Shown piece after piece: positions 53,606-55,100 of a DNA stretch of 64,000 nucleotides. A model generated the notes under the pieces. The model did not search any database. It saw only the letters and a program-made list of their open reading frames with translations, and was not told where the DNA came from. The first letter of the stretch is position 1. The number at the start of each line of letters is the position of its first letter. The translations under genes were made by a program, and so were the position numbers. The DNA is from Lepas anatifera (Eukaryota > Arthropoda > Thecostraca > Lepadidae), in the NCBI GenBank assembly GCA_034440635.1, contig JAOTON010001898.1, positions 2,098,001 through 2,162,000 of the forward strand, read 5' to 3'.

Positions 53606-53820
53606 GTGCTGAAGCCGACGCTAACCTCGTCGCCTGCTCTGACGGTGGTGGGCGGCATGGCCTCCTCCGTGCTCTTCCTCCTCCTGCTCACTGCCGTCGG
53701 TAACATGGAGACGCTGCTCTTCGGCAAGGGCTTCCAGACCAAGCTGCTGGAGGTGTTCCTGTGTCTGGTGCTGTCCTGCAGCGCCGCCGGCGCCGTACAC
53801 CGAGTGTGCACCACCGTCTG
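53606..53820 (+). CDS. KRTCAP2: KRTCAP2/KCP2 homologue, central exon
   Basis: Encodes 71 residues plus two bases (phase 2 at the donor). The central part reads LTVVGGMASSVLF, LLTAVGNMETLLFGKGFQTK, and then a second hydrophobic helix ending AAGAVHRVCTTV. The LFGKGFQ and HRVC signatures and the spacing match what I know of the human protein (LTAFNNLENLVFGKGFQ, HRVC). The split TG codon would most likely complete a cysteine, as in relatives. From the start of the exon to GG the length is 17 residues, as in the human protein. The donor CTG|GTGAGT is strong, and is repeated downstream in a minisatellite. The final exon is not found in the window. Confidence 0.85.
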
Positions 53821-55100
53821 GTGAGTGGTGCTCCTGTGTCCGGCGCCGTACACCGAGTGTGCACCACCGTCTGGTGAGTGGTGCTCCTGTGTCTGGTGCC
53901 GTGCACCGAGTGTGCACCACCGTCTGGTGAGTGGTGCTCCTGTGTCTGGTGCCCTGCACCGAGTGTGCACCACCGTCTGGTGAGTGGTGCTCCTGTGCCT
54001 GGTGCCGTGCACCGAGTGTGCACCACCGTCTGGTGAGTGGTGCTCCTGTGCCCGGTGCCGTGCACCGAGTGTGCACCACCGTCTGGTGAGTGGTGCTCCT
54101 GTGTCTGGTGCCGTGCACCGAGTGTGCACCACCGTCTGGTGAGTGGTGCTCCTGTGTCTGGTGCCGTGCACCGAGTGTGCACCACCGTCTGGTGAGTGGT
54201 GCTCCTGTGCCTGGTGCCGTGCACCGAGTGTGCACCACCGTCTGGTGAGTGGTGCTCCTGTGCCCGGTGCCGTGCACCGAGTGTGCACCACCGTCTGGTG
54301 AGTGGTGCTCCTGTGCCCGGTGCCGTGCACCGAGTGTGCACCACCGTCTGGTGAGTGGTGCTCCTGTGTCTGGTGCCGTGCACCGAGTGTGCACCACCGT
54401 CTGGTGAGTGGTGCTCCTGTGCCTGGTGCCGTGCACCGAGTGTGCACCACCGTCTGGTGAGTGGTGCTCCTGTGTCTGGTGCCGTGCACCGAGTGTGCAC
54501 CACCGTCTGGTGAGTGGTGCTCCTGTGTCTGGTGCCGTGCACCGAGTGTGCACCACCGTCTGGTGAGTGGTGCTCCTGTGTCTGGTGCCGTGCACCGAGT
54601 GTGCACCACCGTCTGGTGAGTGGTGCTCCTGTGCCTGGTGCCGTGCACCGAGTGTGCACCACCGTCTGGTGAGTGGTGCTCCTGTGTCTGGTGCCGTGCA
54701 CCGAGTGTGCACCACCGTCTGGTGAGTGGTGCTCCTGTGCCTGGTGCCGTGCACCGAGTGTGCACCACCGTCTGGTGAGTGGTGCTCCTGTGCCTGGTGC
54801 CGTGCACCGAGTGTGCACCACCGTCTGGTGAGTGGTGCTCCTGTGCCTGGTGCCGTGCACCGAGTGTGCACCACCGTCTGGTGAGTGGTGCTCCTGTGTC
54901 TGGTGCCGTGCACCGAGTGTGCACCACCGTCTGGTGAGTGGTGCTCCTGTGTCTGGTGCCGTGCACCGAGTGTGCACCACCGTCTGGTGAGTGGTGCTCC
55001 TGTGTCTGGTGCCCTGCACCGAGTGTGCACCACCGTCTGGTGAGTGGTGCTCCTGTGTCTGGTGCCCTGCACCGAGTGTGCACCACCGTCTGGTGAGTGG
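53821..55100. repeat. 53-bp minisatellite that copies an exon end and its 5' splice site
   Basis: Perfect 53-bp register: the donor GTGAGTGG occurs at 53821 and every 53 bases to 55093, 25 times including the original. Each unit has an intron-like 24 bp and a 29-bp copy of the KRTCAP2 exon end (GCACCGAGTGTGCACCACCG plus TCTG). Variation is almost confined to a few positions (TGTGTCTGG, TGTGCCTGG or TGTGCCCGG). Because 53 is not a multiple of three and no frame has a stop, all three minus-strand frames stay open; these are not genes. Confidence 0.95.

Follow-up and report, generated by a model that had tools for sequence, protein, structure and literature searches.

How can a gene go on making its protein when a minisatellite has given one of its exons 25 copies of the same 5′ splice site? 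The question arises in a 64,000-nucleotide stretch of the genome of Lepas anatifera (assembly GCA_034440635.1, contig JAOTON010001898.1, positions 2,098,001 to 2,162,000 of the forward strand; hereafter "the window", whose coordinates are used throughout), where an array of 53-bp units lies across the exon 3/intron 3 border of KRTCAP2, a gene for a subunit of oligosaccharyltransferase (OST). From the sequence comparisons described below, it appears likely that this otherwise intact-looking gene is spliced at the first donor, while the other 24 are seldom-used, unproductive bystanders.

Tandem Repeats Finder, run on the window, reported an array at 53792–55103 (+ strand) with a period of 53 bp, 24.8 copies, 98% matches and 0% indels, which is a minisatellite in the sense of a head-to-tail unit of 10–100 bp present in many copies. 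The preliminary description of this DNA had stated that the exon ends in CTG/GTGAGTGG (a slash marks the exon border), that 24 more copies follow at exactly 53 bp, that each unit consists of 29 exon bases and 24 intron bases, and that every unit keeps the donor; string and assembly searches bore all of this out. A count of the donor string CTGGTGAGTGG gave 25 occurrences, and all 24 intervals between them measure 53 bp, placing the possible exon ends at 53820 + 53n (n = 0–24, thus 53820 to 55092); 25 of 25 copies carry the same letters at positions −6 to +10 relative to the exon end. The 20-mer CACCGTCTGGTGAGTGGTGC, which spans the donor, is matched exactly at 25 places in the 1.04-Gb assembly, all within the array, and with 2 mismatches at 6 further places; a reversed control pattern, allowed up to 2 mismatches, matched twice. 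CTGGTGAGT does not occur on the remaining + strand of the window. Chance is excluded as the source of this donor array.

The exon at whose authentic donor the minisatellite starts is real. Exon 3 (53606–53820, + strand, 215 bp, entered in phase 0 and left in phase 2 with GTC TG/) matches Pfam PF09775 (Keratin_assoc) at E = 9.7e-26 (90.4 bits against a gathering cut-off of 23.5), the OST subunit KCP2 in PDB (chain 9n9j_N, E = 1.2e-15) and 14 proteins, the best from Pollicipes pollicipes (72% identity; 71% over Pollicipes residues 24–95) and the third from Amphibalanus amphitrite (68%), so that its earlier assignment to KRTCAP2 is well founded. Coding exon 2 (49356–49423, + strand), which starts at the second base of codon 2, was located by tblastn with barnacle KRTCAP2 and reads AAPTQLSFVLSLLLALSMFAGLQ, its acceptor CTTCCTCAG and donor CAG/GTTAGT being read directly; this short exon gave no PF09775 match on its own. 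Beyond the array, the rest of intron 3 (55093–64000, + strand), which from sequence comparison appears to start with the ancestral GTGAGTGGTGCGTATTAG, runs on to the last exon. This lies 7.2 kb outside the window on the same contig (C1782:2169177–2169282, equal to 71177–71282 in window coordinates and L009:7177–7282) and gives intron 3 a length of 17,356 bp, array included. The last exon begins TTTCATC, and joining TG to its first T gives a Cys that relatives also carry. Taken together with the 130-residue product, this Cys supports an exon 3 end at donor 1 (CTG/GTGAGT, 53818–53826, + strand). Joined through donor 1 and with a first exon assumed to supply ATGG, exons 2–4 encode a 130-aa protein that is collinear with the three full-length relatives closest to it, P0001 (Pollicipes), P0002 and P0003 (Amphibalanus); each of these is also 130 aa long, and the identities are 73, 71 and 69%, respectively.

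Assembly searches, in which the best first-look candidates were scored, found one locus for exon 3 and one for the last exon, for which the next protein match, on C1259, had E = 0.84 and four stops. KRTCAP2 thus appears to be single-copy, and the sequence supports a real gene with intact coding exons 2–4. A pseudogene or a second gene copy was considered and is not supported, given the one locus found and the open frame through these exons. Intron 2 also contains, at 50209–50425, a 116-bp unit that is perfectly duplicated in tandem (1.9 copies, 100% matches).

What would be made if a later donor were used? Since exon 3 ends in phase 2, reading past donor 1 gives TGG TGA at 53819–53824. Product computation and direct reading agree that the in-frame TGA at 53822–53824 (+ strand) stands in every transcript that passes donor 1, and the products computed for the 25 donors comprise 1 full-length protein, from donor 1 alone, and 24 identical 96-aa forms ending in HRVCTTVW, in which the final 35 residues are gone and replaced by one W. 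It had been proposed that, with additions of 53n, only every third donor keeps the frame. This holds as arithmetic and has no effect, because all 24 downstream donors include the TGA that follows donor 1; protein variants through a cycling frame are thereby ruled out. The variable products that had been envisaged are likewise reduced to one truncated protein, and only the sequence after the stop varies. In the human gene IFI6, as we read a passage of PMC4526556, it is a mark of the kind that later donors lead to different isoforms; here the 24 later donors all lead to one product.

In mammals, nonsense-mediated decay follows a 50–55 nt rule, and the rules in arthropods differ from it. The distance from the stop to the last junction is 49 nt for n = 1 and 102–1268 nt for n = 2–24, exceeding 55 nt in 23 of 24 cases, and the messages from downstream donors would therefore be laid out as expected to trigger decay under the mammalian rule. 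Moreover, two of the 14 homologues, P0004 (120 aa) and P0014 (105 aa), have the equivalent W as their last residue (VTVW and ATTW, respectively) and the other 12 continue. In sequence, such ends would be consistent with transcripts of other species in which the equivalent donor was read through or splicing did not occur.

Which donor is chosen? The donor scoring that the preliminary description had suggested was run with generic matrices, not species-specific, in which only the contrast between scores is meaningful: each of the array donors (25 of 25 identical 9-mers) scored 10.13, and the donor of exon 2 scored 8.53. We propose that splicing takes donor 1 for two reasons: exon 3 then measures 215 nt, and this site is the first to be transcribed. 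As the authentic site, it would yield a normal-sized exon and the gene would survive, whereas the other 24, having the same sequence, would act as competitors that may bind the U1 small nuclear ribonucleoprotein (snRNP) and occasionally be used, each time giving the same 96-aa truncation. The identity and even spacing of the 25 donors, the 130-aa protein reached through donor 1 and the single locus found are all in favor of this proposal.

The same competition could be read in another way. If downstream donors were used often, a fixed fraction of transcripts would be diverted into the 96-aa or decayed form, and array length would set that fraction, making the repeat a brake on dosage. The presence of 24 competitors of equal strength, all leading to the same premature stop, fits such a brake, and a passage of PMC4526556 reports that IFI6 does employ downstream repeat donors. 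Against it, exon 3 would extend to 268–1487 nt through the downstream donors, and such exons are longer than usual; heavy use would also harm an apparently single-copy gene for an OST subunit. We consider a dosage brake quite improbable.

The secondary structure of the array does not point to a favored site. A possible hairpin with arms GCACCAC and GTGGTGC would hold the donor in its loop in every unit (53808–53831 in the first, + strand), and locally it is no better than shuffled sequence. Folding z was 0.33 locally, −1.49 for one unit, −2.92 for two units and −2.89 for 53760–53900; the whole-array value of −8.93 (30 shuffles) is inflated by repetition. Averaged over the donor 9-mer, the unpaired probability was 0.40–0.45 for n = 0–22, and 0.20 and 0.19 for n = 23 and 24, so the first donor is no more open than most. 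Local folding thus gave no clear sign of hidden donors.

At the other end of exon 3, the acceptor (GACGGGGTGCGTCAG/GTG, 53603–53605, + strand) is very weak. It has 7 of 20 pyrimidines upstream and a score of 0.06, matched or surpassed by 35% of the window's + strand AGs, whereas exons 2 and 4 have acceptors scoring 12.41 and 12.74 (top 0.2%). Perhaps, then, the array serves as a landing platform: 24 strong donors would recruit U1, exon definition would rescue the weak acceptor, donor 1 would make the cut, and array length would tune KRTCAP2 output. The contrast between this acceptor and donors that surpass that of exon 2 is what such a platform would call for, although the matrix behind the acceptor score is generic and was not made for this species. 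A precedent is offered by PAH exon 11, described in an excerpt of PMC5933811, where a weak 3′ site is combined with U1 binding downstream of the natural donor. The array itself supplies a third argument. Variation is confined to five of the unit's 53 columns (4, 6, 48, 50 and 53; in the 25th copy the final 13 columns, which are flanking intron, are excluded), and the 41 consecutive columns between 6 and 48, donor included, are invariant, a clustering with P = 0.006 if columns were random. This is no proof of selection, because the variable columns sit at or beside the old duplication joint, and recent homogenization can account for the invariance. On balance, we regard a U1 platform as unlikely. 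A small chance, in our judgment, attaches to its fullest form, a minisatellite turned splicing regulator, in which 24 surplus unproductive donors recruit U1 to rescue a near-random acceptor, the stop after donor 1 unifies the errors, and copy number acts as a rheostat of KRTCAP2.

Several of these observations weigh against use of donor 1 with the rest as bystanders. Donors 2–25 equal donor 1 in the 9-mer and beyond, and because of this identity no feature of the site itself favors the first. Among 11 AGs scored around 53480–53660, two exceed the exon 3 acceptor, those for exon starts at 53524 (0.43) and 53564 (2.54); since the acceptor taken here is very weak and these two AGs shortly upstream of it score higher, exon 3 may need help, which extra U1 sites could give. 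An exon start at 53564 would be in frame but would run into TAA at 53582–53584. Some read-through product may be normal, given that P0004 and P0014 end as donor read-through would. Bystander status is not guaranteed either, because IFI6 uses two downstream units (in the excerpt of PMC4526556). Finally, the first exon of KRTCAP2 was not located; ATGG was assumed, with two candidates listed.

How could such an array have arisen? The preliminary description had suggested that a slip between the exon stretch CCTGTGTCTGGTG and a short match at the unit border may have started it. This was close, as the stretch does recur, at an offset of 75 bp; a further gap of 22 bp is needed to arrive at the 53-bp period. 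Comparison by eye points to a source at 53752–53831 (+ strand), bounded by GGTGT in the exon (53752–53756) and GGTGC in the intron (53827–53831), 75 bp apart. After the last copy the intron runs on as GTGAGTGGTGCGTATTAG, while the first unit joins GTGAGTGGTGC to TCCTGTGTC, and in the exon TCCTGTGTC follows the GGTGT at 53752–53756, 75 bp upstream; relative to the exon, the next 22 bp are absent, leaving 53. The array would thus have begun with a 75-bp exon/intron tandem duplication at the GGTG microhomology, followed by loss of 22 bp between GGTGC and GGCGC and by amplification of the 53-bp remainder to 24 extra units (1,272 bp). This is the simplest history of the array and the probable one. 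Unit 0, in the exon, and unit 1 both read GTACACC, and the other 23 units read GTGCACC, or CTGCACC in units 3, 23 and 24, which suggests that expansion took place downstream of the first units. Moreover, columns 48 and 50 show the same series in units 1–4 and in units 5–8, a pattern expected from slippage over several units or from unequal exchange, notwithstanding that columns 4 and 6 differ between these blocks.

The order within the units also bears on whether the array is as long as it seems. Near-identical units can be miscounted in assembly and one haplotype was found, so that the length might be an artefact and the true allele short. Yet the array spans just 1.3 kb inside a 2.29-Mb contig, its copies are not all alike and show an ordered pattern in the five variant columns, and the assembly search found no second locus; an artefact of this kind seems highly improbable.

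Other roles for the repeat were considered and rejected. Units acting as mini-exons are unlikely, the two AGs in each unit scoring −4.53 and −3.41. On the antisense strand, all three frames are open across the array (53602–55231; 534, 536 and 472 aa). An antisense gene was set aside, such frames being probably incidental: when the mononucleotides of one unit were shuffled 20,000 times, 25% of the results had no antisense stop either.

The array is flanked by mobile sequence. An abundant element of about 785 bp with inverted ends, resembling a miniature inverted-repeat transposable element (MITE), lies upstream of exon 3 (52550–53334, + strand; found by sequence comparison, ends by eye), and a second copy, inverted and internally deleted, lies about 100 bp after the array (55201–55695, − strand; sequence comparison). 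Between the two, 332 nt align with 78% identity and a further 152 nt with 82%, and the pair encloses exon 3 and the array. Further copies occur at 26616–27421 and L009:3885–4667, and the assembly search returned 5,075 first-look candidates, of which 40 were scored. The idea that the array belongs to a transposon was rejected: the inverted repeats on either side are two copies of this abundant element, whereas exon 3 and the array start match this locus only. Inverted element pairs can favor exon skipping or circular RNA, and by analogy this MITE-like pair could promote skipping of exon 3 or its circularization.

Elsewhere in the window, a foldback or MITE-like palindrome at 48100–48760 carries telomere-type repeats in its arms, (TTAGG)n at 48172–48367 and (CCTAA)n at 48612–48708; because the flanking sequence is inverted too, it is more likely an element than the scar of a chromosome fusion. 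A second minisatellite-like array, with overlapping periods of 31 to 313 bp and GCTGCTGCTGTAGCCAGGGCGGTCGTGCCCCA-like units, is found at 4220–5531. At 43041–46049, four overlapping open frames resemble, by eye from their translations, a broken non-long-terminal-repeat retrotransposon with endonuclease and reverse transcriptase.

It is worth considering what the locus offers as a natural experiment on the choice made by the spliceosome. Here 25 equal and evenly spaced 5′ splice sites belong to an apparently single-copy gene whose product needs the first of them, and counts of donor use would put first-come, exon-definition and proximity rules to the test with no need to engineer minigenes. A phase-2 exon ending in TG/GTGA gives one protein end to all errors of a donor-multiplying repeat.

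In comparison with other KRTCAP2/KCP2 proteins of the PF09775 family, the gene of L. anatifera is ordinary in sequence, in its length of 130 aa and in a C-terminal KKRR shared with P0001–P0003. It differs in that its exon 3 border bears a minisatellite, the other barnacles being compared by protein only. A comparable array in KRTCAP2 was not found in the open-licence PMC papers searched; in an excerpt of PMC9456278, krtcap2 is named a hub gene and minisatellites appear solely in the title of a reference. Closer parallels come from splicing itself. Judged by its title, an article by Hodson et al. (2012) reportedly concerns surplus U1 snRNPs at alternative sites. In the excerpt of PMC5933811, minigene tests support a role of intronic U1 binding downstream of the natural donor for the weak 3′ site of PAH exon 11. 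PAH and KRTCAP2 are alike in having an exon with a weak acceptor and extra U1-type sites beyond the natural donor, yet the PAH site described there is regulatory, whereas KRTCAP2 has 24 full donors and any enhancement by them is hypothetical.

The nearest precedent is the minisatellite of human IFI6 (6-16, G1P3), reportedly the subject of work by Turri, Cuin and Porter in 1995. According to the passage in PMC4526556, two downstream repeat units serve as donors there, giving three mRNA species, and the variants encode different isoforms. As in IFI6, the minisatellite units of KRTCAP2 supply extra splice donors, here at the level of sequence. Unlike what that passage describes, the KRTCAP2 array holds 25 identical donors in a 53-bp unit of coding exon plus intron that is not a multiple of 3, and with a stop immediately behind donor 1, none of the 24 extras is productive. 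As far as that passage goes, a minisatellite that multiplies donors is already precedented by IFI6; new in KRTCAP2 are the unit of coding exon plus intron, the 25 identical donors and extra donors that give no longer protein.
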